64,000 nt of DNA, taken from NCBI GenBank assembly GCA_032622095.1, contig CP136061.1, positions 6,768,734-6,832,733 of the forward strand, given 5' to 3'. A program made the position numbers and the translations under genes. How positions within the stretch are numbered: position 1 is the stretch's first letter; the number at the start of each line of letters is the position of its first letter. This stretch comes from Siphonodentalium dalli. Taxonomy: Eukaryota > Mollusca > Scaphopoda > Gadilida > Siphonodentaliidae. This document shows positions 1 to 64,000 of the stretch, piece after piece. The notes beneath the pieces are model-generated. The model worked only from the letters and a program-made list of their open reading frames with translations. It was not told the DNA's origin and made no database searches.

Positions 1-120
1 CGATTAACATCAAATATGGCAACGAGGTTATCTAACTTGTATTTACTGCTGAACGCCATGGCTTCCCAGATTGAACCCTCTGCACTCTCACCATCACCAA
101 TCAAACAGTAGGTACGATAA
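1..120 (-). CDS. TKT: Transketolase, coding exon 5 (partial, runs off left edge)
   Basis: Read on the minus strand, a tctctttcag acceptor (121..130) is followed by an open exon encoding [20 protein letters not shown] and on through [19 protein letters not shown]. This matches the thiamine-diphosphate motif of animal transketolases: GDG begins the motif and the Asn of KLDNL closes it, the pair that holds the Mg-diphosphate. Transketolase moves two-carbon ketol units between sugar phosphates in the non-oxidative pentose phosphate pathway, in the cytosol. The exon starts in phase 2 (GA from exon 4 plus T gives Asp). It ends beyond base 1, so no donor is visible. The first 22 bases of this exon and its acceptor are also the unit of the 40-bp array that follows upstream (98..1238). 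The family assignment is very sure; whether it is TKT or a TKT-like paralogue cannot be told from this part. Confidence 0.95.
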
Positions 121-1238
121 CTGAAAGAGATATTAACCGATCAAACAGTAGGTACGATAACTGAAAGATATATTAACCGATCAAACAGTAGGTACGATAA
201 CTGAAAGAGATATTAACCAATCAAACAGTAGGTACGATAACTGAAAGAGATATTAACCAATCAAACAGTAGGTGCGATAACTGAAAGAGATATTAACCAA
301 TCAAACAGTAGGTATAATAACTGAAAGAGATATTAACCAATCAAACAGTAGGTACGATAACTGAAAGAGATATTAACCAATCAAACAGTAGGTACGATAA
401 CTGAAAGAGATATTAACCGATCAAACAGTAGGAACAATAACTGAAAGAGATATTAACCAATCAAACAGTAGGTACGATAACTGAAAGAGATATTAACCGA
501 TCAAACAGTAGGAACAATAACTGAAAGAGATATTAACCAATCAAACAGTAGGTACGATAACTGAAAGAGATATTAACCGATCAAACAGTAGGAACAATAA
601 CTGAAAGAGATATTAACCAATCAAACAGTAGGTACGATAACTGAAAGAGATATTAACCGATCAAACAGTAGGTACGATAACTGAAAGAGATATTAACCGA
701 TCAAACAGTAGGTACGATAACTGAAAGATATATTAACCGATCAAACAGTAGGTACGATAACTGAAAGAGATATTAACCAATCAAACAGTAGGTACGATAA
801 CTGAAAGAGATATTAACCAATCAAACAGTAGGTGCGATAACTGAAAGAGATATTAACCAATCAAACAGTAGGTATAATAACTGAAAGAGATATTAACCAA
901 TCAAACAGTAGGTACGATAACTGAAAGAGATATTAACCAATCAAACAGTAGGTACGATAACTGAAAGAGATATTAACCGATCAAACAGTAGGAACAATAA
1001 CTGAAAGAGATATTAACCAATCAAACAGTAGGTACGATAACTGAAAGAGATATTAACCGATCAAACAGTAGGAACAATAACTGAAAGAGATATTAACCAA
1101 TCAAACAGTAGGTACGATAACTGAAAGAGATATTAACCAATCAAACAGTAGGTGCGATAGCTGAAAGAGATATTAACCAATCAAACAGTAGGTATGATAA
1201 CTGAAAGAGATATTAACCAATCAAACAGTAGGTACAAT
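98..1238. repeat. 40-bp minisatellite built from the exon 5 splice acceptor
   Basis: About 28 units of 40 bp. Each minus-strand unit holds ttaat (branch-point-like), tctctttcag (acceptor) and the first 22-25 bases of exon 5 (TTATCGTACCTACTGTTTGA). Variant units (ggtgcg, ggtataa, ggaacaa, ctgaaagata) recur 560 bp apart (for example 161 and 721; 311 and 871; 431 and 991), so a block of 14 units was duplicated. Units other than the one at the exon would read [12 protein letters not shown]. Confidence 0.95.
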
Positions 1239-2960
1239 GAATGAAATACAATGTGAAAAGTAAAATTAGATATAACCATTTTAGTTCAGGCCAAATAAAA
1301 TAATACCTTTGTTTCCTGTTAAGGAGGACAAAATAAATTAGGGTTGGGAAGGGGGGGGTAATTTTTTTTTTTTTTTTTTTTTATAAATTCCCATAATGCA
1401 CAAGGTAATAACAGCCCTTAATGTATTGTAGATACAGGTATGCTATGAATATAGTCTATCTGGATAAAATTTTGTGATGAACTCGCAAGGCACTGTATTT
1501 TATATTCTTTAATTTAAGATTTTATTTATCATATGGCCTGGCAATAACAGGAGTCAGACCACTTTGTGCAAATCTCGCATATTGGAGACTGTCGAATGTT
1601 TTGTCTTAGGGAAGCTTTCACCACACGATTACCTTCCCCATATCGGACACAAACATAAGCTCGGCCATCACCAGAACCATAGTATGCCAACTCTAGAGGA
1701 TCAGACAGGGATAATCTTGAGTGTTTTTGGGAAAGGGTCCGGAGCCCATGCAATTAGGAAAAATAGATACCTTGTGGGGTAATTGGGAATTTTCGAATTG
1801 AAATAATGACACTATCAAATGAATTTAAAAAATAAGATGTTTAAAACTTAATGAACTAATGAATAAAACAAGTGTATATTCCAGCTCATACTAAGTCTGA
1901 GACAGTATCTCTAAAAAATCTAATACATGACATGTACAAACCAGCTCATACTAAGTCAATACCTCCATAAATCTGATATATACTTTATTCTAGTACATGT
2001 AGTTGAAATTATTATATACAAAGTATAGTCAGGACTATTATATATGATTCTTGGTATAAGTTAGTACATGCATGTAGAATTCCATAATAACATGTTGCAT
2101 TAAAGCATGAGTTCCCTTCCTGTATGTGAACAATATTCAACCTGCTAAAAAAATCCCACCTCCCTGCACCTTCCCACAAATCATGTTTCATCCAATTTTC
2201 ATATTAGAGTTACATGCTTCAGTGCTATCAGAAAATTTAACAACAGATTGTTGATAATTTGTATGAAACAATCAATAGCCATATTTGTACAAAGCCATTT
2301 AATTTCTATTAATCAACACCGCTAAACATATCAAATTGAGTTACTAAACATTATTCCATACCTATAACTCTAAAATACTTCGGGTTAAAGTTGCCTATTT
2401 TCGAGGAATCATGTTTTTGGATGTTTGTTAGCCCACTAACCCCATTTTGGTGTGTTTTGTGAGCGTGATTTTGCAAGTTAATTAGGCTAATTACTCATTG
2501 AATTAAAATCAGCAACTTATACTAATAGAAACTGAAAGAATAATGTCAAGTTGGGAGAATGAAATTGGGAACTTCGAAATTTATTTTATTTTGAAAATAA
2601 AAGTTGTTTTGGTAGGCCATTTGGCGAATGGGTTACAATAAACAAAGGTGTTATTTTCTTTTAGGCCTTATAGTACTCAAGCTTTAAATTAAACTTAGTT
2701 GTTGCTCACCAAGGTACAAAATATGTTGAAATACAAGATAATTTGGACCATTTATGATAAGGAAACACTCGTTATAATGAAGAGATAGAATTACTGCCTC
2801 ACAAAGACAATATGGGTCCCTTTAATCTTAGCATTTAACAACAAAGAGAGTTCTCTGTTAGTTTATCCCGTAATTGAGTGACATGCTCCGATTGGTCCAT
2901 GTATGTATTTGCCTGTGAATGCCATACCAGGAGTTAAAACTGTGGGTCAAAAATTGGAAG
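1239..2960. other. Transketolase intron 4, unique AT-rich part
   Basis: Intron sequence with no recognised element. It has a T-rich homopolymer run (1363..1382). A minus-strand open stretch at 1526..1753 with a nearby aataaa is discussed as a finding. Confidence 0.5.
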
Positions 2961-2970
2961 TAAACCTAGC

Positions 2971-3220
2971 TACAGTAATGCCCTAAATAATTGACTCTTT
3001 AACCGCAGCAGAATTATGGGTAACTTTTCAGGATTTAGTCGGATATATGGTTGTTGCCTGCCATTCATCGGAAAGCTCTCACTGCTTTCTGATGAATGAC
3101 AACAAGCCATATTTGAGAGCTTTCCGATGAATGGCAACAAGCCATATTTCCGATTAAATCCTGAAAAGTTACCCATAAATCTGCTGTGGTTAAGGAGTCG
3201 ATTATTTAGAGCATTACTGA
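2971..3220. mobile_element. Family E palindromic MITE, copy 1
   Basis: The arms start CAGTAATGCCCTAAATAATTGACTC and end with the reverse complement GCATTACTG, giving a nearly full-length hairpin. It is the same family as 8391, 23895, 25184, 25492, 47554, 51787, 56319 and 57160. Family hallmarks are CCACAGCAGAATTATGGGTA and GATTTAGTCGGAAATATGGC. Confidence 0.85.
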
Positions 3221-3309
3221 TTCTAATTTCCAATGGGAATGGAGCCCATCCCTGAAATGGGCCTATTCTTCTGCAGCATTTAATAATAAATAATAAATGC
3301 AAGACGTAC

Positions 3310-3407
3310 TCTGATTGGTCAATGTATTTGCCTGTGTACGCCATACCAGCTCCCACGCTGAGACCCTGGCCAAGAGATCCGGTCGCTACATCGATATAAG
3401 TCTGACG
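3310..3407 (-). CDS. TKT: Transketolase, coding exon 4
   Basis: The minus-strand exon encodes RQTYIDVATGSLGQGLSVGA followed by GMAYTGKYIDQS and two bases (GA) of a split Asp codon. DVATGSLGQGL and GMAYTGKY are near-invariant in animal transketolases, and the glycine-rich stretch helps bind the cofactor diphosphate. The acceptor is tttcgtttcag (ending at 3408) and the donor gtacgt (3304..3309). The length is 98 nt: 32 codons plus 2 nt, which joins exon 5 in frame. A second AG six bases into the exon (after CGTCAG) could also serve as an acceptor, dropping RQ and keeping frame. A long palindromic MITE (family E, 2971..3220) ends only 90 bases downstream of the donor. Confidence 0.95.
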
Positions 3408-6057: not shown

Positions 6058-6178
6058 ATCAGGTGCCTGTCATTGGCAGAATGAGGTCCCCAGGGGTGAA
6101 TTTGGGGATGCTAGCCCGCTAAATTCACCCTCTGGGGACCTCATTCTGCAAATGACAGGCACCTTATTCTCAGGCCTG
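6058..6178. mobile_element. Family D hairpin MITE, short copy
   Basis: A palindrome of the D core: GCAGAATGAGGTCCCCAG..GTGAATTT and its inverse AAATTCACCCTCTGGGGACC, with outer ends CAGGTGCCTGTCATT and ATGACAGGCACCTTATTCTC. It lies 72 bases downstream of exon 3. Confidence 0.8.
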
Positions 6179-6249: not shown

Positions 6250-6363
6250 TGGGGTAGGATGTCCCTCCAATTCACTGTCAATCTTACGTAGATTAGTCAG
6301 CTCCTCAATCGGAATGACACCAGCTTCGGCCCAGGCAGCATATAGAACCGGAGCGGCATGACC
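6250..6363 (-). CDS. TKT: Transketolase, coding exon 3
   Basis: The minus-strand exon of 38 whole codons encodes [20 protein letters not shown] then [23 protein letters not shown] carries the active-site His of the SKGHAAP motif and EGHPTP carries another conserved substrate-binding His. The acceptor is ttttttag (ending at 6364) and the donor gtaagt (6244..6249); both boundaries are phase 0, so the exon could be skipped without breaking frame. Its 5' part, acceptor and adjoining intron have been duplicated several times upstream (6364..6880), making an array of degenerate exon copies. I chose this copy as the real exon because only it continues to EGHPTP and a good donor. Confidence 0.95.
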
Positions 6364-6880
6364 CTAAAAAAATACATAATAGTAAATATATAGAACCCTA
6401 AATCGGATTGACACCGGCCTCGGCCCAGGCAGCGTATATAACCGGAGCGGCATGACCCTAAATAATACATAATAGTAAATATATAGAATCCTACATGTAA
6501 ATCGAAATGACACCGGCCTCGGCCCAGGCAGCGTATAGAACCGGAGCGGCATGACCCTAAATAATACATAATAGTAAATATATGGAATCCTAAATTGGAA
6601 CGACTCCAGCCAATCTTACGTAGATTAGTCAGCTCCTCAATCGGAATGACACCAGCTTCAGCCCAGGCAGCGTATTGAACAGGAGCGACATGACCCTAAA
6701 TAATACATAATAGTAAATATATAGAATCCTAAATCGAAATGACACCAGCCTCGGACCAGGCAGCGTATAGAACCGGAGCGGCATGACCCTAAATAATACA
6801 TAATAGTAAATATATAGAATCCTAAATCGGAATGACACCAGCTTCGGCCCAGGCAGCATATAGAACAGGAGCGGGAACAA
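6283..6880. repeat. Tandem array of degenerate transketolase exon 3 copies with acceptors
   Basis: Minus-strand units of roughly 93 to 140 bp repeat the acceptor tattatttag, the bases of [19 protein letters not shown] and part of the intron (aatacataatagtaaatatatagaa). Clear copies have their acceptors near 6364 (the real exon), 6459, 6557, 6695 and 6790, and a decayed one ends near 6875. The copy at 6602..6690 extends further into the exon (EELTNLRKI). The first upstream copy reads to ..AGVNPI then TAG. Confidence 0.9.
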
Positions 6881-7599: not shown

Positions 7600-7735
7600 A
7601 ATATATAGAACCCTAAATCGGAATGACACCAGCCTAGGCCTAGGCCCAGGCCGCATATAAAACAGGAGTGGCATGTCCCTACAAAAACATCAACAGTATA
7701 AATTTAGAGTCATCAATCGTGATTACACCAGAGTC
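7600..7735. repeat. Diverged exon 3-derived copies
   Basis: The sequences aatcggaatgacaccagcct and ccaggccgcatataaaacag match the exon 3 array unit at 6283..6880 with more mismatches. Another remnant follows the MITE at 8059..8090, so the array once extended further and was broken by insertions. Confidence 0.65.
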
Positions 7736-7740
7736 AGCGG

Positions 7741-8056
7741 AGGCTTGAAACAGTGTGTTTGTCATTTGCAGAATCTATAGTCTCAAATTAACATTGTCTT
7801 TAGTTACTTTTTCCCTTCTGTTCAGTTTCTATATCCCCTAATTTGCAGAAGATAAAATGCATAATTGAGGTGACTAATGGGTGAACATCACCAACTTCAA
7901 TCTGATACTTGGTCTCCCATAGCAGTTGAGGCCTAAGCAGAATGAGGTCACAAGAGGGTAAATTTAGTGATGCTAGCCCACTATGCGGGATAGCGTCACT
8001 AAATTCACCCTCCGGGGACCTCATTCTGCAAATGACACACACACTATTTCAAGGCA
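7741..8056. mobile_element. Family D MITE inserted in an exon 3-derived copy
   Basis: The ends GGCTTGAAACAGTGTGTTTG and CACACACTATTTCAAGGC are inverted. The right half keeps the full D hairpin (7938..8030); the left hairpin is deleted. The middle (ttagttactttttcccttct..gcagttgaggcct) matches copies at 48865 and 56557. Confidence 0.8.
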
Positions 8057-8390
8057 TGGGCCAGGCAGCATATATAAAACAGAAACAGAGCTGCATGTTG
8101 ACACAATGGCGGCAAATAAAAGTCATGCATAGCAGTAGAACTTTCAAATTCATAAAAAAAATTCCTTACTATATATGAAATATTGAACAAAATATTTGAA
8201 TATTTAACCATTCCATGACTGGAGCATCCAGAAATTTTGCGAAAACCCTGTGTCAATGCAAGTCTCCCATAGGGAACCTGGCTTATATAAGAGAATACAT
8301 TGGCCTCAATTAAATTGACCTATGGAAACTTGCATATATAATAGAATGTACAGCAACTCCCTTCATTAAAGGGTTAAGTAATCAGCATAT

Positions 8391-8522
8391 ACAGTAATGC
8401 CCTAATTAATCGACTCCATAACCACAGCAGAATTATGGGTAACTTTTCAGGATTTAGTCGGAAATATGGCTTGTTGCCATTCATCGGAAAGCTCTCGGGG
8501 AGCTTAATTAGGGCATTACTGT
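8391..8522. mobile_element. Family E MITE, one arm deleted
   Basis: The left arm ACAGTAATGCCCTAATTAATCG is complete to ..GGAAAGCTCTCGGGGAGC; most of the right arm is missing, but the terminal GGGCATTACTGTA remains. Confidence 0.8.
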
Positions 8523-8773: not shown

Positions 8774-8891
8774 CTTGGAGAGAATGAAGCGATCGTTGGC
8801 TGCATTCCTCACTTCCTCGATCGAGTACCTCATCACTTTGAAGAAGAGAACTGACATTATCTCCGCCATAGAACAGCATGATGTCGGATGT
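8774..8891 (-). CDS. TKT: Transketolase, coding exon 2
   Basis: The minus-strand exon encodes [20 protein letters not shown] followed by [19 protein letters not shown]. With the split Gly codon from exon 1 (GG plus A) it forms the SGHPTSCCS motif, whose His takes part in cofactor and substrate chemistry, and it ends at the FILSK that joins GHAAP of exon 3. The acceptor is gctttttag (8892..8900) and the donor gtgagg (8768..8773). The length is 118 nt (1 base plus 39 codons), so the frame is kept. Relative to human TKT the segment aligns without gaps as far as I can recall the family pattern. Confidence 0.95.
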
Positions 8892-19261: not shown

Positions 19262-20277
19262 GTTTCAGTTAACCCTTTATGGAGCCCCAGACAGAGAGAG
19301 AACAATGCACTGATGACTGTCGTCTGCTTGGGTCCACGAGAGGCTCCTTACGGGAGTGTTATATAACCCTTTCATGATGGGAACTTTATGGAGCCCAGAT
19401 AGATAGAACAATGCAGTGATGACTGTCGGCTGCTTGGGTCAGTCTGAGGCTCCTTACGGGAGTGTTATATAACCATATCATAACCGGAGCTTTATGGAGC
19501 CCAGGACAGAGAGAACAATTCAGTGATAACTGTCGTCTGCTTGGGTCCACGAGAGGCTCCTTACGGGAGTGTTATATAACCCTTTCATGATGGGAACTTT
19601 ATGGAGCCCAGATAGATAGAACAAAGCACTGATGACTGTCCGCTGCTTGGGTCCGTCTGAGGCTCCATATGGGAGTGTTATATAACCATATCATGACGGG
19701 AGCTTTATGGAGCCCCAGACAGAGAGAACAATGCAGTGATGACTGTCGTCTGCTTGGGTCCATGTGGGGCTCCTTATGGGAGTGTTATATAACCCTTTAA
19801 TATCTTTAAACCCTTTATGGAGCCCCAGACAGAGAGAACAATGCAGTGATGACTGTCATCTGCTTGGGTCCATGTGGGGCTCCTTATGGGAGTGTTATAT
19901 AACCCTTTAATATCTTTAAACCTTTTATGAAGCACCAGACAGAGAGAACAATGCACTGATGACTGTCGTCTGCTTGGGTCCATCTGAGGCTCCTTATGGG
20001 AGTGTTATATAACCTTTTCATGACAGGAGCTTTATGAAGCACCAGATAGAGAGAACAATGCAGTGATGACTGTCGTCTGCTTGGGTCCATGTGGGGCTCC
20101 TTATGGGAGTGTTATATAACCTTTTCATGACGGGAGCTTTATGAAGCACCAGACAGAGAGAACAATGCACTGATGACTGTCGTCTGCTTGGGTCCATGTG
20201 GGGCTCCTTATGGGAGTGTTATATAACCTTTTCATGACAGGAGCTTTATGAAGCACCAGATAGAGAGAACATTGCAC
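19262..20277. repeat. About 105-bp tandem array of a family C hairpin
   Basis: About ten units: ctttatggagccccagacag..gaacaatgca(c/g)tgatgactgtcgtctgcttgggtcc..ggggctccttatgggagtgttatataacc. The outer parts of each unit (gagcccc/ggggctc) pair, so every unit can fold. Confidence 0.9.
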
Positions 20278-20311
20278 TCTGTTATCCTGTGTCAGTGTAT
20301 TCTCTTATATA

Positions 20312-30372: not shown

Positions 30373-30479
30373 CCCGAATTGCTGGCATTGGTTGCGCGTA
30401 TGCTGTGAATACGTAATTTGTTAGCAATGTCTTTCAATTCTTGCAGCATCCTTGCATCGGGTCGGTGATAATCTGTCAT
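30373..30479 (-). CDS. TKT: Transketolase, coding exon 1 with start codon
   Basis: On the minus strand the ATG at 30479 opens [20 protein letters not shown] followed by [15 protein letters not shown] and two bases (GG) of the Gly completed by exon 2. This is the normal N-terminus of animal cytosolic transketolase, with the conserved [16 protein letters not shown] helix and no targeting peptide. The donor is GG|gtaagt (30367..30372). No upstream in-frame ATG is needed, because the family starts at this point. Intron 1, about 21.5 kb, follows downstream of this exon (8892..30372). A 119-bp perfect-looking palindrome (30216..30334) lies just inside it. Confidence 0.95.
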
Positions 30480-35390: not shown

Positions 35391-35645
35391 TAAACTCAGA
35401 CGTGCAATTACTGTGCTGCATTTTATTAGTTAATTATTTAGTTAACTCAACTTAGATCATGGAGTGCGCAATTTAACTTTTTAATTTCAGACGGGCCAAG
35501 GGCAATTGTACCTATATAATATTTGAACATTTCCTGAAGAAATTGCATGTCAATGAGTATTTAGTATAAACTGCATGTCAAAGAGTATTTAGTATAAAGC
35601 AACCGCTGATTCATCAGTTAACTATGTTGACTGGAGCTTCATTAA

Positions 35646-36445
35646 AGTGATGTGAAACACTCCGGTATGGTGATCAAATAGAAATGGAGAATAATCTTAA
35701 TGTGATGTGAAACACTCCGGTATGGTGATCAAATAGAAATGGAGAATAATCTAAATGTGATGTGAAACACTCCGGTATGGTGATCAAATAGAAATGGAGA
35801 ATAATCTTAATGTGATGTGAAACACTCCGGTGTGGTGATCAAATAGAAATGGTTAAAGTGATGTGAAACACTCCGGTATGGTGATCAAATAGAAATGGAG
35901 AATAATCTTAATGTGATGTGAAACACTCCGGTATGGTGATCAAATAGAAATGGAGAATAATCTTAAAGTGATGTGAAACACTCCGGTATGGTGATCAAAT
36001 AGAAATGGAGAATAATCTTAATGTGATGTGAAACACTCCGGTGTGGTGATAAAATAGAAATGGTTAATGTGATGTGAAACACTCCGGTATGGTGATCAAA
36101 TAGAAATGGAGAATAATCTTAAAGTGATGTGAAACACTCCGGTATGGTGATCAAATAGAAATGGAGAATAATCTTAATGTGATGTGAAACACTCCGGTGT
36201 GGTGATAAAATAGAAATGGTTAAAGTGATGTGAAACACTCCGGTATGGTGATCAAATAGAAATAGAGAATAATCTTAAAGTTATGTGAAACACTCCGGTA
36301 TGGTGATCAAATAGAAATAGAGAATAATCTTAAAGTGATGTGAAACACTCCGGTATGGTGATCAAATAGAAATGGAGAATAATCTTAAAGTGATGTGAAA
36401 CACTCCGGTATAGGTGATCAAATAGAAATGGAGAATAATCTTGTT
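35646..36445. repeat. 55-bp minisatellite with 46-bp variants
   Basis: About 15 units of gtgatgtgaaacactccggt(a/g)tggtgatcaaatagaaatgg followed by agaataatcttaa (long) or ttaa (short). Short units carry the g variant. The unit is the inverse of the end of the repeat at 28955..29277. Confidence 0.93.
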
Positions 36446-36774: not shown

Positions 36775-38935
36775 CCAATGCATTCTCTTATATATGCGAG
36801 TCGGGCCGGGCTTACTGAAACCACCCACCCACCGGGCTTGGTATCCTGGAATGTTTTCGCGACCCCCTAATATTTAGAAACCACCCATGCATGCATGCAC
36901 CCACGGGCTTGGTATCCTGGAATGTTTTCGCGACCCCCTAATAGTTAGAAACCACCCACCCACCGGGCTTGGTATCCTGGAATGTTTTCGCGACCCCCTA
37001 ATATTTAGAAACCACCCACCCACGGGCTTGGTATCCTGGAATGTTTTCGCGACCCCCTAATATTTAGAAACCACCCACCCACGGGCTTGGTATACTGGAA
37101 TGTTTTCGCGACCCCCTATAATATTACAGAAACCACCCACCCACGGGCTTCGTATCCTGGAATGTTTTCGCGACCCCCTAATATTTAGAAACCACCCACC
37201 ACGGGCTTCGTATCCTGGAATGTTTTCGCGACCCCCTAATATTTAGAAACCACCCACCCACGGGCTTGGTATACTGGAATGTTTTCGCGACCCCCTATAA
37301 TATTACAGAAACCACCCACCCACGGGCTTCGTATCCTGGAATGTTTTCGCGACCCCCTAATATTTAGAAACCACCCACCCACCGGGCTTGGTATCCTGGA
37401 ATGTTTTCGCGACCCCCTAATATTTAGAAACCACCCACCCACGGGCTTGGTATCCTGGAATGTTTTCGCGACCCCCTAATATTTAGAAACCACCCACCCA
37501 CGGGCTTGGTATCCTGGAATGTTTTCGCGACCCCCTAATATTTAGAAACCACCCACCCACGGGCTTGGTATACTGGAATGTTTTCGCGACCCCCTATAAT
37601 ATTACAGAAACCACCCACCCACGGGCTTCGTATCCTGGAATGTTTTCGCGACCCCCTAATATTTAGAAACCACCCACCACGGGCTTCGTATCCTGGAATG
37701 TTTTCGCGACCCCCTAATATTTAGAAACCACCCACCCACGGGCTTGGTATACTGGAATGTTTTCGCGACCCCCTATAATATTACAGAAACCACCCACCCA
37801 CGGGCTTCGTATCCTGGAATGTTTTCGCGACCCCCTAATATTTAGAAACCACCCACCCACCGGGCTTGGTATCCTGGAATGTTTTCGCGACCCCCTAATA
37901 TTTAGAAACCACCCACCCACGGGCTTGGTATCCTGGAATGTTTTCGCGACCCCCTAATATTTAGAAACCACCCACCCACGGGCTTGGTATACTGGAATGT
38001 TTTCGCGACCCCCTATAATATTACAGAAACCACCCACCCACGGGCTTCGTATCCTGGAATGTTTTCGCGACCCCCTAATATTTAGAAACCACCCACCCAC
38101 GGGCTTGGTATACTGGAATGTTTTCGCGACCCCCTAATATTTAGAAACCACCCACCCACGGGCTTGGTATCCTGGAATGTTTTCGCGACCCCCTAATATT
38201 TAGAAACCACCCACCCACGGGCTTGGTATACTGGAATGTTTTCGCGACCCCCTATAATATTACAGAAACCACCCACCCACGGGCTTCGTATCCTGGAATG
38301 TTTTCGCGACCCCCTAATATTTAGAAACCACCCACCACGGGCTTCGTATCCTGGAATGTTTTCGCGACCCCCTAATATTTAGAAACCACCCACCCACGGG
38401 CTTGGTATACTGGAATGTTTTCGCGACCCCCTATAATATTACAGAAACCACCCACCCACGGGCTTCGTATCCTGGAATGTTTTCGCGACCCCCTAATAGT
38501 TAGAAACCACCCACCCACCGGGCTTGGTATCATGGAATGTTTTCGCGACCCCCTAATATTTAGAAACCACCCATGCACCCACCGGGCTTGGTATCCTGGA
38601 ATGTTTTCGCGACCCCCTAATAGTTAGAAACCACCCACCCACCGGGCTTGGTATCCTGGAATGTTTTCGCGACCCCCTAATATTTAGAAACCACCCACCC
38701 ACTGGGCTTGGTATCCTGGAATGTTTTCGCGACCCCCTAATATTTAGAAACCACCCACCCACGGGTTTGGTATCCTGGAATGTTTTCGCGACCCCCTAAT
38801 ATTTAGAAACCACCCACCCACGGGTTTGGTATCCTGGAATGTTTTCGCGACCCCCTAATATTTAGAAACCACCCACCCACGGGCTTGGTATCCTGGAATG
38901 TTTTCGCGACCCCCAATATTTAGGAAATATTTAAG
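36775..38935. repeat. 59/60-bp minisatellite with higher-order repeats
   Basis: About 36 units of gggcttggtatcctggaatg ttttcgcgaccccctaatat ttagaaaccacccacccac(c). Variants (tatactgg, ataatattacag, ggcttcg) recur in a 478-bp block (for example 37236 and 37714). The left edge breaks an A/B hairpin arm at 36775..36806. Confidence 0.95.
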
Positions 38936-40100: not shown

Positions 40101-40484
40101 CCTAAAATTCCACACGCAAATCTTCTCTGAACATGTTGTGAAAGTCACATGACTTGGTCACATGACCAACGGGAATTCCATTCATTCCTGTGTATGTCGC
40201 ACGAGGGTATAAAGACTGTTCAATCGTATTGATGGAAGACGGTTATCGGAGAATTTGGTAAGATATTTCAGATTATTTACTCGATTATACGTCACATTCT
40301 CTCGACATACACTTACTTTGACAAACACATTTTTATTTGTAATCGCGGATATCACGATTTTTATCACATCGTTGATCTAAAGCGGCTTCTGCAATTTTCA
40401 ATTTCAGAAGTTATATCCGCTGCCATTTGACACCTCTTTGGTTCTCGTGTCGTGGCTGCTGTGGTTTGTCACTCACAGACTTCT
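40100..40484 (+). promoter_or_regulatory. Putative VGLL4 5' region with two GTCACATGAC sites
   Basis: A stretch of more complex, CpG-containing DNA precedes the VGLL4 exon. It carries two identical 10-mers GTCACATGAC at 40144..40153 and 40157..40166, which contain the M-box TCACATGA bound by MITF/TFE factors in vertebrates. A CATTCC (TEAD-type core) lies at 40183..40188; a 6-mer like this occurs often by chance. The region may be the 5' UTR, an upstream intron or the core promoter. Confidence 0.4.
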
Positions 40485-40560
40485 ATGATGATGGAGACGC
40501 CGTTAGATGTACTATCGAGAGCTGCTTCCATGGTGGAGACGACCCACACGAATGGTAACG
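40485..40560 (+). CDS. VGLL4: Vestigial-like family member 4, first coding exon
   Basis: The plus-strand exon encodes MMMETPLDVLSRAASMVETT and then HTNGN before a gtacgtgtat donor at 40561. METPLDVLSRAAS is the conserved N-terminus of vertebrate VGLL4, a nuclear cofactor that binds TEAD factors through later Tondu domains and opposes YAP in the Hippo pathway. The family start corresponds to the ATG at 40491; two more in-frame ATGs precede it (40485, 40488). The bases gtcactcacag just before ACTTCTATG look like a splice acceptor, so an upstream untranslated exon is possible. An alternative donor gtaacg lies 5 bases earlier. No Tondu-coding exon (VDDHFAKAL type) was seen in the following 23 kb, so the next intron is long. 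Confidence 0.85.
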
Positions 40561-41470
40561 GTACGTGTATATATATAAACTACAGCTCGGGTAACAACAC
40601 AGCGTTTATTATATCACTGTGTATCGATCGCATTGCTGAAATATTTCTGAGATATTTGTTAATCTCCGTGAGGCGTTTTCACCATTTACGGCGCAGTTGT
40701 TAGGAATTCTTATCAAAATCACCCAGTAAAGACACATAGTTACCATTTACATGTAGTCGTCAATTTTACATTAGATTGACTAGATGGATATGTTCATTGT
40801 GTTTTTGTGCACTGACTGTTCAAAATTCAGTGATTCACGTGCACATGGGTTTTTTTTATTTATAATTAAATGTTTGATATTAATCATATTATTAAAGTGC
40901 CTCATAATGATCAGAGCTAAAATTTATCACACAACATTTATTATATCACGTTGTATCTATCACATTGCTGAAATATTCCTGTGATGTTTGCTAATATCTA
41001 CGAAAGGCATTGTCTCTATTCTTGATACAGTTGGCAATTCTAAATTAATCAAAATAAATCAGGAAAGATACATAATGGGCCCTTTAATTACAATGTAACA
41101 TCCATATTTCATAGAGAGATCATTATATATATACATGTACATTGTGCACTTATTCTGTTCAGAATTCATAGTGATTCACATATGAGATCTTTTTTATTTA
41201 TAATCCCAATTTTCGATATTAAAAGTACTCTATCGATTCGACGGTCCTCATATCATCAGATTCCAACAACACAAACATTATATGCCTGTTTGTCAAATAT
41301 CTGACACAAAAAAGACACTTGATTTTAGAGTTATCCATCTTCATCTGCAAAATTAATATCTGATCACTCTGAACTCTGATTCCTCGACTCGAATCAAATA
41401 TTTTTTTATCCCCGAAGCCAAGGCAATAGTAATTTGCAAGCGTTAATTCGGATTATGTGTCTTTAACAAT
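40561..41470 (+). other. VGLL4 first coding intron, unique start
   Basis: It begins with gtacgtgtat. It contains a diverged local duplication (tatatcactgtgtatcgatc.. at 40609 and tatatcacgttgtatctatc.. at 40941). No exon seen. Confidence 0.5.
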
Positions 41471-43949: not shown

Positions 43950-44354
43950 CAAGCCTTGAAATAGTGTGCCTGTCATTTGCAGAATGAGGTCCCCAGAGGA
44001 TGAATTTAGTGATGCTACCCCGCATAGCGGGCTAGCATCACCAAATTCAACCTCTGGGGACCTCATTCTGTTTACAACTCAGCAGAATGAGGTTCCCAGA
44101 GGGTGAATTTGGTGATGCTAGCCCGCTATGTGGGGTAGCATCACTAAATGCACCCTCTGGGGACCTCATTCTGCAAATGACAGGCACACTATTTGCAGGT
44201 TTTCTCCTACTCCAGTAAGTGAAATAACTCATGAATGTTTTATATGTAACCCACAGGGAGCCTCACACAGATGGATGAATGCACCACAGAGTGTTGTCTG
44301 CTCCAGTCTGTGGGGGGGCTCCCTATGGGTTCAAGCACACTATTTCAAGGCTTG
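43950..44354. mobile_element. Family D MITE with 8-bp TSD, carrying a family C hairpin
   Basis: CAAGCCTTGAAATAGTG..CACTATTTCAAGGCTTG flanked by tccattgg (43942..43949, 44355..44362). Two D hairpins (43978..44070, 44083..44175) and a family C hairpin (44238..44331). Confidence 0.92.
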
Positions 44355-46829: not shown

Positions 46830-47083
46830 CAAGCCTTGAAATAGGGTGTCTGTCATTTGCAGAATGAGGTCCCCAGAGGGTGAATTTAGCGATGCTACCC
46901 TGCATAGCGGGCTAGCATCACCAAATTCACCCTCTGGGAACCTCATTCTGCTGAGGTGTAAGCAGAATGAGGTCCCCAGAGGGTGAATTTGGTGATGCTA
47001 ACCTGCTATGCGGGGTAGCATCACTAAATTCACCCTCTGGGGACCTCATTCTGCAAATGACAGACACCATATTTCAAGGCTTG
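46830..47083. mobile_element. Family D MITE, compact form, perfect 8-bp TSD
   Basis: CAAGCCTTGAAATAGGGTGT..ATTTCAAGGCTTG flanked by tgggggat (46822..46829, 47084..47091). Two D hairpins joined by ctgaggtgtaag. Confidence 0.94.
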
Positions 47084-58651: not shown

Positions 58652-59089
58652 AGGCCTGGGAATATGTTGCTGGACATTTGTAGCATGAGGTCCCCAGAAG
58701 GTGAATTTAGTGACGGTTCCTTGCACAGCGGGCTTGAGGTCCCCAGAACGTGAATTTAGTGACGGTTCCTTGCACAGCGGGCTTGAGGTCACCAGAACGT
58801 GAATTTAGTGACGGTTCCTTGCACAGCGGGCTTGTATTACTAAATTCATCCTCTATGGACCACATTCTATGTGGCATCATCTGCTGTGGGTAGACTCAGA
58901 TTTAGGATCCCAGATTTAATAGATAATAAATATACATTGTACTTTTTCAAATGTACTTTCCAAAGATGATGCCTTAGCTGAATGAGGTCCCCAGAGGGTG
59001 AACTTAGCTGAATGAGGTCCCCAGAGGGTGAACTTAGTGGTGCTCTGGGGACCTCATTCTGAAAAATGTCCGGCACCATATTCTCAGGT
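58652..59089. mobile_element. Family D-related MITE with a local triplication
   Basis: The ends CAGGCCTGGGAATATG and CATATTCTCAGG. Inside, gtccccagaacgtgaattta gtgacggttccttgcacagc occurs three times (58690..58830), with a 29-bp duplication (gctgaatgaggtccccagag) at 58977 and 59007. Confidence 0.78.
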
Positions 59090-61800: not shown

Positions 61801-64000
61801 CGTGTTATCCTACTCACAAGATGTTATCCTACTCTCAAGATGTTATCCTACTCTCAAGATGTTATCCTACTCTCAAGATGTTATCCTACTCTCAAGATGT
61901 TATCCTACTCTCCAGATGTTATCCTACTCTCAAGATGTTATCCTACTCTCAAGATGTTATCCTACTCACAAGATGTTATCCTACTCTCAAGATGTTATCC
62001 CACTCTCAAGATGTTATCCCACTCTCAAGATGTTATCCCACTCTCAAGATGTTATCCTACTCTCATGATGCTATCCTACTCTCAAGATGTTATCCTACTC
62101 CCATGATGTTATCCTACTCTCATGATGTTATCCTATACTCTCAGGATGTTATCCTATACTCTCATGATGTTATCCTATAATCTCAGGATGTTATCCTACT
62201 CCCATGATGTTATCCTACTCTCATGATGTTATCCTATACTCTCAGGATGTTATCCTACTCCCATGATGTTATCCTACTCTCATGATGTTATCCTATACTC
62301 TCAGGATGTTATCCTACTCTCATGATGTTATCCTATACTCCCAGGATGTTATCCTACTCCCATGATGTTATCCTACTCTCATGATGTTATCCTATACTCT
62401 CAGGATGTTATCCTACTCCCATGATGTTATCCTACTCTCATGATGTTATCCTATACTCTCAGGATGTTATCCTACTCTCATGATGTTATCCTACTCTCAT
62501 GATGTTATCCTATACTCTCAGGATGTTATCCTACTCTCATGATGTTATCCTATACTCTCAGGATGTTATCCTACTCTCATGATGTTATCCTACTCTCATG
62601 ATGTTATCCTATACTCTCAGGATGTTATCCTACTCGCATGATGTTATCCTATACTCTCAAGATGTTATCCTACTCTCATGATGTTATCCTATACTCTCAG
62701 GATGTTATCCTACTCTCATGATGTTATCCTATACTCTCAGGATGTTATCCTACTCTCATGATGTTATCCTATACTCTCAGGATGTTATCCTACTCTCATG
62801 ATGTTATCCTATACTCTCAGGATGTTATCCTACTCTCATGATGTTATCCTATACTCTCAAGATGTTATCCTACTCATGATGTTATCCTATACTCTCAGGA
62901 TGTTATCCTACTCTCAAGATGTTATCCTACTCTCATGATGTTATCCTATACTCTCAGGATGTTATCCTACTCTCATGATGTTATCCTATACTCTCAAGAT
63001 GTTATCCTACTCTCATGATGTTATCCTATACTCTCAAGATGTTATCCTACTCTCATGATGTTATCCTATACTCTCAGGATGTTATCCTACTCTCAGGATG
63101 TTATCCTACTCTCATGATGTTATCCTATACTCTCAGGATGTTATCCTACTCTCATGATGTTATCCTATACTCTCAGGATGTTATCCTATACTCTCAGGAT
63201 GTTATCCTACTCTCATGATGTTATCCTATACTCTCAGGATGTTATCCTACTCTCATGATGTTATCCTATACTCTCAGGATGTTATCCTACTCTCAAGATG
63301 TTATCCTACTCTCATGATGTTATCCTATACTCTCAGGATGTTATCCTACTCTCAAGATGTTATCCTATACTCTCAAGATGTTATCCTACTCTCATGATGT
63401 TATCCTATACTCTCAAGATGTTATCCTACTCTCATGATGTTATCCTATACTCTCAATATGTTATCATACTCTCATGATGTTATCCTATACTCTCAAGATG
63501 TTATCCTACTCTCATGATGTTATCCTATACTCAGGATGTTATCCTACTCTCAGGATGTTATCCTATACTCTCATGATGTTATCCTATACTCTCAGGATGT
63601 TATCCTACTCTCATGATGTTATCCTATACTCTCAAGATGTTATCCTATACTCTCAGGATGTTATCCTACTCTCATGATGTTATCCTATACTCTCAGGATG
63701 TTATCCTACTCTCATGATATCCTATACTCTCAAGATGTTATCCTACTCTCATGATGTTATCCTATACTCTCATGATGTTATCCTACTCTCAGGATGTTAT
63801 CCTATACTCTCATGATGTTATCCTACTCTCATGATGTTATCCTATACTCTCAGGATGTTATCCTACTCTCATGATGTTATCCTATACTCTCAAGATGTTA
63901 TCCTACTCTCATGATGTTATCCTATACTCTCAAGATGTTATCCTACTCTCATGATGTTATCCTATACTCTCAGGATGTTATCCTACTCTCAAGATGTTAT
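61801..64000. repeat. 19/21-bp minisatellite running off the right edge
   Basis: More than 100 units. 61801..62100 is mostly 19-bp gttatcctactctcaagat; from about 62130 the array becomes alternating 19-bp (ctactctcatgatgttatc) and 21-bp (ctatactctcaggatgttatc) units, a 40-bp dimer. At least 2.2 kb. Confidence 0.96.

Follow-up and report, generated by a model that had tools for sequence, protein, structure and literature searches.

Choice among equal 3' splice sites, whether by scanning or by proximity on the intron or exon side, has classically been studied with pairs of competing sites, PMC9225289 being one example. In the scaphopod Siphonodentalium dalli, a transketolase (TKT) gene carries 28 such sites in front of its fifth exon. 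This raises the questions of which of them can yield TKT, how the array arose and why the gene bears it. The window analysed here is a stretch of 64,000 nucleotides (C1:6768734-6832733) from a 2.2267-Gb assembly of 9 contigs, and the exons beyond the window were read from a further 70 kb downstream.

The transketolase gene

Five TKT exons lie in the window, all on the minus strand (window positions):

30373..30479, minus strand: exon 1, start codon to donor
8774..8891, minus strand: exon 2, without local copies of its edges by the edge-comparison criterion
6250..6363, minus strand: exon 3
3310..3407, minus strand: exon 4, with donor ATCAGA/gtacgt, joining exon 5 in phase 2
1..120, minus strand: first 120 of the 192 nt of exon 5, which extends 72 nt past the window start

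The joined protein of exons 2-5 matched solved transketolases with a best E of 9.1e-70. Among the best 120 matches listed, the named proteins near the top were mostly from molluscs (75-79%), with chelicerates and others among them. The top match, a transketolase-like protein in which the first part is present twice, is from another species and was set aside. Exons 1-11 join as a single frame of 569 aa with no stops, identical to the TKT of Ostrea edulis at 414 of 569 positions (73%) with 0 gap columns, and to that of Potamilus in 401 of 568 aligned columns with one gap column. Exon 12 starts at C1:6727137 and has a stop codon at its end. One frame without stops, a gap-free alignment and this final stop therefore indicate that the TKT gene is intact.

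A mollusc TKT query gave 12 exon matches in the assembly, all in C1:6726977-6799212. A second TKT exon set was not found in the 2.2 Gb, the match elsewhere being one weak one (26%) on C4 (18 candidates scored). With a single TKT exon set found, the animal presumably needs this gene and tolerates its array. A reading frame on the opposite strand (METPLDVLSRAASMVE; window 40431-40703, +), head to head with TKT, resembles the start of VGLL4.

The start of exon 5 is predicted at window 120, from in-frame joining of exons and gap-free alignment to animal TKTs. It is scarcely credible that exon 5 truly starts elsewhere and that the array is a non-coding repeat, since joining the phase 2 donor of exon 4 to this acceptor gives a protein that aligns without gaps to the TKTs of oyster and other animals, the codons for YRTYCLIG lie within the units and only the last unit runs on into exon 5. 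The 192-nt exon is flanked by introns of 3189 nt (intron 4) and 10241 nt (intron 5).

The exon 5 array

The 40-bp tandem array at window 96-1246 (minus strand) comprises 28.8 copies with 94% matches and is far beyond chance expectation (TRF score 2064). Its minus-strand unit consists of 24 nt of the start of TKT exon 5 and 16 nt of intron end (TTAATATCTCTTTCAG). The array presents 28 CAG acceptors at 40-nt spacing, with their G at window 121 + 40k (k = 0 to 27; 121, 161 ... 1201). The G at 121 belongs to the acceptor of TKT exon 5 itself, and the other 27 (G at 161-1201) are decoys. This count of intact acceptors within the TRF array bears out the original prediction that the acceptor of transketolase exon 5 has been amplified about 28 times. 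Departures from the rest in the acceptor region include:

1217..1246, minus strand: partial copy at the 5' edge, in which TTTCAT replaces TTTCAG, leaving no acceptor AG, followed by exon-like sequence (unit table)
161..200, minus strand: unit with the nearest decoy acceptor, its pyrimidine tract weakened (C to A)

The C to A change is confined to units 161-200 and 721-760, which are 560 bp apart. The chance that the nearest decoy should be a weakened one is about 2 in 27, and no claim is attached to it. Eight kinds of unit can be told apart among the 27 full ones at 121-1200, which vary at 7 positions. A single one of these positions belongs to the 16-nt intron part, and selective conservation of the acceptor part was not significant (binomial P 0.16).

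Shifted by 560 bp (14 units) and compared with itself, the array shows 98.1% identity across 590 bp, including an exact match of 479 bp that starts at window 100. This degree of identity at a 14-unit lag makes one recent block duplication event likely. The 14-unit (560-bp) block proposed from the first inspection thus holds in its step, and has to be shortened in its exact tract, which spans about 12 units. The exact match could also reflect a mis-joined repeat, in which case the block or the array length would be an artefact of assembly. This is very unlikely: three contigs of 277-301 Mb imply long reads that should be able to span 1.15 kb, at least 14 units are still left when one block is subtracted, the units are of 8 distinct types, and separate arrays are present at exons 3, 7 and 11.

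In a search that skips very common words, the 1151-bp array sequence occurred once in the 2.2267-Gb assembly, besides a 69-bp match (79%) on C4 which has no TKT coding match nearby and was taken as unrelated. An exact-pattern search of viral contigs with 24 nt of the 40-bp unit gave 0 matches. The predicted folding of an RNA made up of five units and the adjoining 40 nt of exon 5 was unremarkable (z -0.15), and a structure concealing the decoys was rejected for want of a folding signal.

Consequences of acceptor choice

When exon 4 is joined to the upstream acceptors, translation reads DY(RT, CS, YT or HT)YCLIG and then TAA in 27 of 27 cases, and the acceptor at 121 is the only one in the array whose translation continues as TKT. 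The decoys that read YCSY include those at 441, 521, 601, 1001 and 1081. Both had been foreseen from the letters of the sequence, namely that any upstream acceptor would read through YCLIG to TAA and that only the last unit gives protein.

Scored with a human acceptor matrix, 25 of the array's 28 acceptors, including the real one, reach 5.7, those at 161 and 721 reach 4.2 and that at 1161 reaches 6.0. As the scores are nearly equal, position must decide. By the same matrix, 120 of 1439 AGs sampled from the DNA of introns 1-4, outside the two acceptor arrays, score as high as the real acceptor; what had been called a good acceptor is an average one. The branch-like TTAAT of the same account fared no better. 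Under the AG-exclusion rule, the branch site for acceptor 121 would lie inside its own 40 nt, where there are two yUnAy matches, TTGAT at -21 and TTAAT at -13. By the usual spacing rule, TTAAT, just 13 nt from the AG, was rejected in favour of TTGAT. The latter lies in the copied coding part of the unit and is the likelier branch site, so that coding sequence may serve as a branch site.

The units might be read as mini-exons or recursive sites with TTG/GTTAAT as donor. This was rejected on account of the weak donor (1.2) and of a 23-nt exon that would shift the frame. The best GT in the unit examined has this donor score of 1.2, and 469 of 1595 intronic GTs score as well.

Copies of other splice junctions in the gene

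Copies of exon edges, which the original prediction did not mention, also occur at other TKT exons (window positions for the first three; the last two lie just outside the window):

6307..6874, minus strand: second acceptor array (TRF), unit 93-99 bp, with the exon 3 acceptor (G at 6364) at its end
7612..7719, minus strand: older copy (76%) of the region around the exon 3 acceptor, with the AG intact at 7679
2871..2930, minus strand: degenerate copy (78%) of the end of exon 4 within intron 4, with the donor lost
C1:6753556-6753752: exon 7 donor array, with two copies of the exon 7 end downstream at a 65-bp period
C1:6734443-6735042 and C1:6736474: exon 11 acceptor array, with 35-36-bp units and 10 decoys

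The decoys of the exon 3 array lie at 6458, 6557, 6696 and 6789, in four copies that are 90-94% identical. Together with 7679, 5 of 5 lead to a stop in translation. In intron 10, before exon 11, are ten TCTAG acceptor-like decoys in steps of mostly 35-36 nt, with a lone site at -2031. With the exon 10/11 border taken as phase 0, 10 of 10 lead to a stop; several have AG/GT and some AG/GTT. The exon 11 array was found by edge comparison and motif count; TRF does not report contact with the junction, and the array stands outside the count of 3/22 given below. Downstream of exon 7, the first copy of its end lacks the GT and the second retains it.

Acceptor-side copies lie upstream and donor-side copies downstream of their exons, that is, in the intron. 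This placement would be expected if arrays survive only where the exon is left whole. The sole exception in the edge comparison, a stretch of 21 nt upstream that matches the end of exon 3, fits the longer exon 3 copy at 6696.

About 190 bp interrupt the exon 11 array before its last two sites and look, by eye, like a dispersed element that occurs in the window as well, around 3000-3230 and 8390-8520. A recurring inverted-repeat element, which starts with GCAGAATGAGGTCCCCAGAGGGTGAATTTAG and ends in its reverse complement, appears MITE-like by eye and is sometimes tandem:

Window 6077-6150, 7937-8029, 43979-44173, 46859-47054 and 58686-59037: GCAGAATGAGGTCCCCAGAGGGTGAATTTAG inverted-repeat element

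In an EEF2-like gene, at an exon near C1:37024794-37025054, the acceptor and the first 20 or so coding bases have been copied 696 bp upstream (92%). The copy is followed by a run of G and is a one-step case of the same process.

The decoys of TKT might act as a rheostat, capturing splicing and sending transcripts to NMD, so that array length would set the level of the enzyme. There are 27 of them at exon 5, near-equal in strength, 40 nt apart and each leading to an in-frame TAA; the same layout recurs at exon 3 (5 decoys) and exon 11 (10 decoys), and equal-strength upstream 3' sites are not ignored in human data (PMC9225289). However, any intron-bearing unit readily yields stops, the acceptor part is under no significant constraint, as shown above, and the nearest decoy has been weakened rather than kept at strength. 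Regulation of this kind is unlikely.

Repeats and junctions: chance or targeting

Tandem repeats cover 21.7% of the window (79 TRF rows in 64 kb), the large minisatellites being:

Window 36812-38923: 59-bp unit
Window 61803-64000: 40-bp unit
Window 35642-36442: 55-bp unit
Window 19275-20278: 107-bp unit

When the arrays were rotated within the window, at least 2 of the 4 TKT acceptors fell in arrays in 138 to 259 of 1280 rotations, depending on the repeat definition. Repeats make up 19.0% of the whole TKT gene, and the repeat-finder arrays include 3 of its 22 junctions (the exon 3 and exon 5 acceptors and the exon 7 donor), as against 4.2 expected at random (P(≤3) 0.38). Since this matches random placement at such coverage, the overlap of arrays and junctions in TKT needs no targeting.

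Other genes differ. EEF2, an EEF2-like gene, parts of EFL1- and EFTUD2-like genes and enolase were used for comparison, the first four being named from their match pattern. Those four have 64 exon ends in 147.6 kb with 10.2% repeat, and 0 of 64 lie in arrays or within 20 nt of one (expected 6.5; P 0.001 under free placement). In enolase, 0 of 16 lie in arrays. The 80 comparison ends are alignment ends, good to a few nt, and a few of them are gene starts or stops. Against these 0/80, the 3/22 of TKT gives a Fisher P of 0.009, and 2/21 without exon 5 gives 0.042. Counting arrays within 20 nt, which adds the exon 6 donor and the exon 7 acceptor, the figures are 5/22 and 0/80 (0.0003, or 0.0015 when the exon 5 acceptor is left out). 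Local copies of exon edges were found in 5 of 12 TKT exons and in 1 of 32 exons of the four other genes, enolase being left out of this count (Fisher 0.0037; 0.011 without exon 5). The 32 are taken from 34 matches, with C4:216601352 and C3:288026884 left out, and several flanks are incomplete. TKT was chosen because of its array, so all these P values flatter it.

Introns provide a second standard. By a criterion similar, not identical, to that used for edges, local copies were found for 133/336 intronic 80-mers in TKT, 83/335 in EEF2 and 50/177 in the EEF2-like gene. Edges with local copies number 0/24 in EEF2 and 1/26 in the EEF2-like gene, compared with 25% and 28% of their intronic 80-mers. 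Exon ends outside TKT thus seem normally protected from repeats, whereas those of TKT seem to tolerate or suffer them about as freely as its introns do.

Splice junctions, of TKT or of transcribed DNA, might alternatively be preferred targets of amplification, for example through co-transcriptional DNA structures. The excess of TKT over the other genes, both in edge copies (5/12 against 1/32) and in arrays within 20 nt, would agree with this, as would the involvement of both acceptors and a donor. On the other side, TKT edges are affected no more often than TKT introns (40% of 80-mers, by the similar criterion), both the junction count and the rotations match random placement, the edges of EEF2 and the EEF2-like gene fall far below their introns, and TKT was selected for having an array. 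Preferential targeting is accordingly unlikely. It is also improbable that TKT combines a hot spot of junction amplification (acceptors 3, 5 and 11; donor 7) with a length-tunable, stop-coupled rheostat on this pentose-phosphate enzyme, evolving by repeat number.

Comparison with known systems

The head-to-tail units of the exon 5 array, highly identical (40 bp × 28.8, 94%) and within the range of about 10-100 bp, are those of a minisatellite. In period, homogeneity, block duplication and setting it is like an ordinary intronic minisatellite, from which it differs in that its unit holds a splice acceptor and 24 nt of coding exon.

In the closest natural case, the human CBS 844ins68 allele, the intron 7/exon 8 junction is duplicated, and the distal site is strongly favoured, giving normal mRNA (PMC2630376). 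That paper terms the sites donors, and a paper it cites speaks of 3' splice site selection. The TKT unit likewise spans an intron end and an exon start (16 nt + 24 nt), and in CBS the upstream exon piece is removed. The CBS case is one polymorphic 68-bp duplication, whereas TKT has 28 acceptors, further arrays and a choice of site that is predicted.

In polyubiquitin UBC, too, a single gene with internal repeats carries splice sites in tandem. Its units are coding monomers of 228 nt, whose AGGT sites can serve as donor or acceptor and keep the frame (PMC10809524). Those of TKT exon 5, in contrast, are 40 nt long, carry CAG/TTATCG, are out of frame and lead to a stop at each decoy. A dual-specific array of the UBC type was rejected, as the sites lack AGGT and the best GT in the unit examined scores 1.2. 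Recursive splice sites were rejected for the lack of AG/GT in the exon 5 array, and NAGNAG tandem acceptors because these need a 3-nt spacing and the exon 5 acceptors are 40 nt apart. The premature stops of unproductive splicing and poison exons were found by translation behind 27/27, 5/5 and 10/10 decoys of the three acceptor arrays.

Intron gain by tandem genomic duplication (PMC4974935) likewise remodels intron/exon structure; in TKT, unlike there, an existing acceptor has been multiplied and no new intron has formed. Among the literature listings examined, no described case of an acceptor amplified to such a degree stood out, which is a weak negative. By definition, then, the exon 5 array is a minisatellite, and it resembles a CBS-type junction duplication carried to 28 acceptors.

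Probable tolerance of minisatellite growth

The original prediction had left open whether the array sets splicing efficiency, brakes TKT according to its length or is tolerated through 3'-most preference or NMD. The last of these is the best reading, and no finding supports the other two. It is probable that a hyperactive minisatellite process caught the splice junctions of TKT and that the copies on the intron side have been tolerated by way of exon definition. A very active process of this kind would first have duplicated DNA spanning the boundary of intron 4 and exon 5 and would then have amplified the 40-bp unit. Since the remainder of exon 5 follows only the 3'-most unit, the others would in effect be intron, and growth of the array would lengthen intron 4 and leave the protein unchanged, provided that the last acceptor is chosen. 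With introns 4 and 5 so long and exon 5 so short, exon definition may be invoked for this choice: the exon 5 donor would pair with whichever acceptor lies closest to it. Since another AG stands at -40, the functional branch site is expected to be limited to the last unit, in which TTGAT at -21, a piece of copied coding sequence, is best placed. Any splicing that leaked to the nearest decoys would insert 40n nt and a stop, and the products would be removed by NMD.

Tolerance agrees with the persistence of an array in which 27 of 27 decoys are non-productive by translation, and acceptors are not singled out, because an array also sits on the exon 7 donor. It also suits the repeat-rich setting of the window and of the TKT gene. 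In human long introns, splice sites closest across the exon are favoured (PMC9225289), and in CBS 844ins68 it is the downstream copy that wins (PMC2630376). In PMC9225289, however, the upstream preference among equal-strength 3' sites in long introns is only reduced, and the 27 decoys could therefore well leak. Mostly last-site use is thus expected, with some +40n leakage to NMD. Against tolerated growth, free placement with uniform tolerance poorly explains the difference between TKT and the 0/80 of the comparison genes. On balance, the exon 5 array is real and unusual in degree, and it is probably passive and presumably neutral.

TKT, an intact gene with 28 near-identical acceptors before a single exon, offers a natural test of splice-site choice; the same transcript also contains comparable sets of 6 and of 11 acceptors and, in mirror image, a donor array of three copies. 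The unit variants act as tags, so that choice could be measured directly against position, and differences in allele length would bear on the idea of a brake. If the last site is indeed the one chosen, growth of a repeat over a splice junction can be absorbed by the intron.
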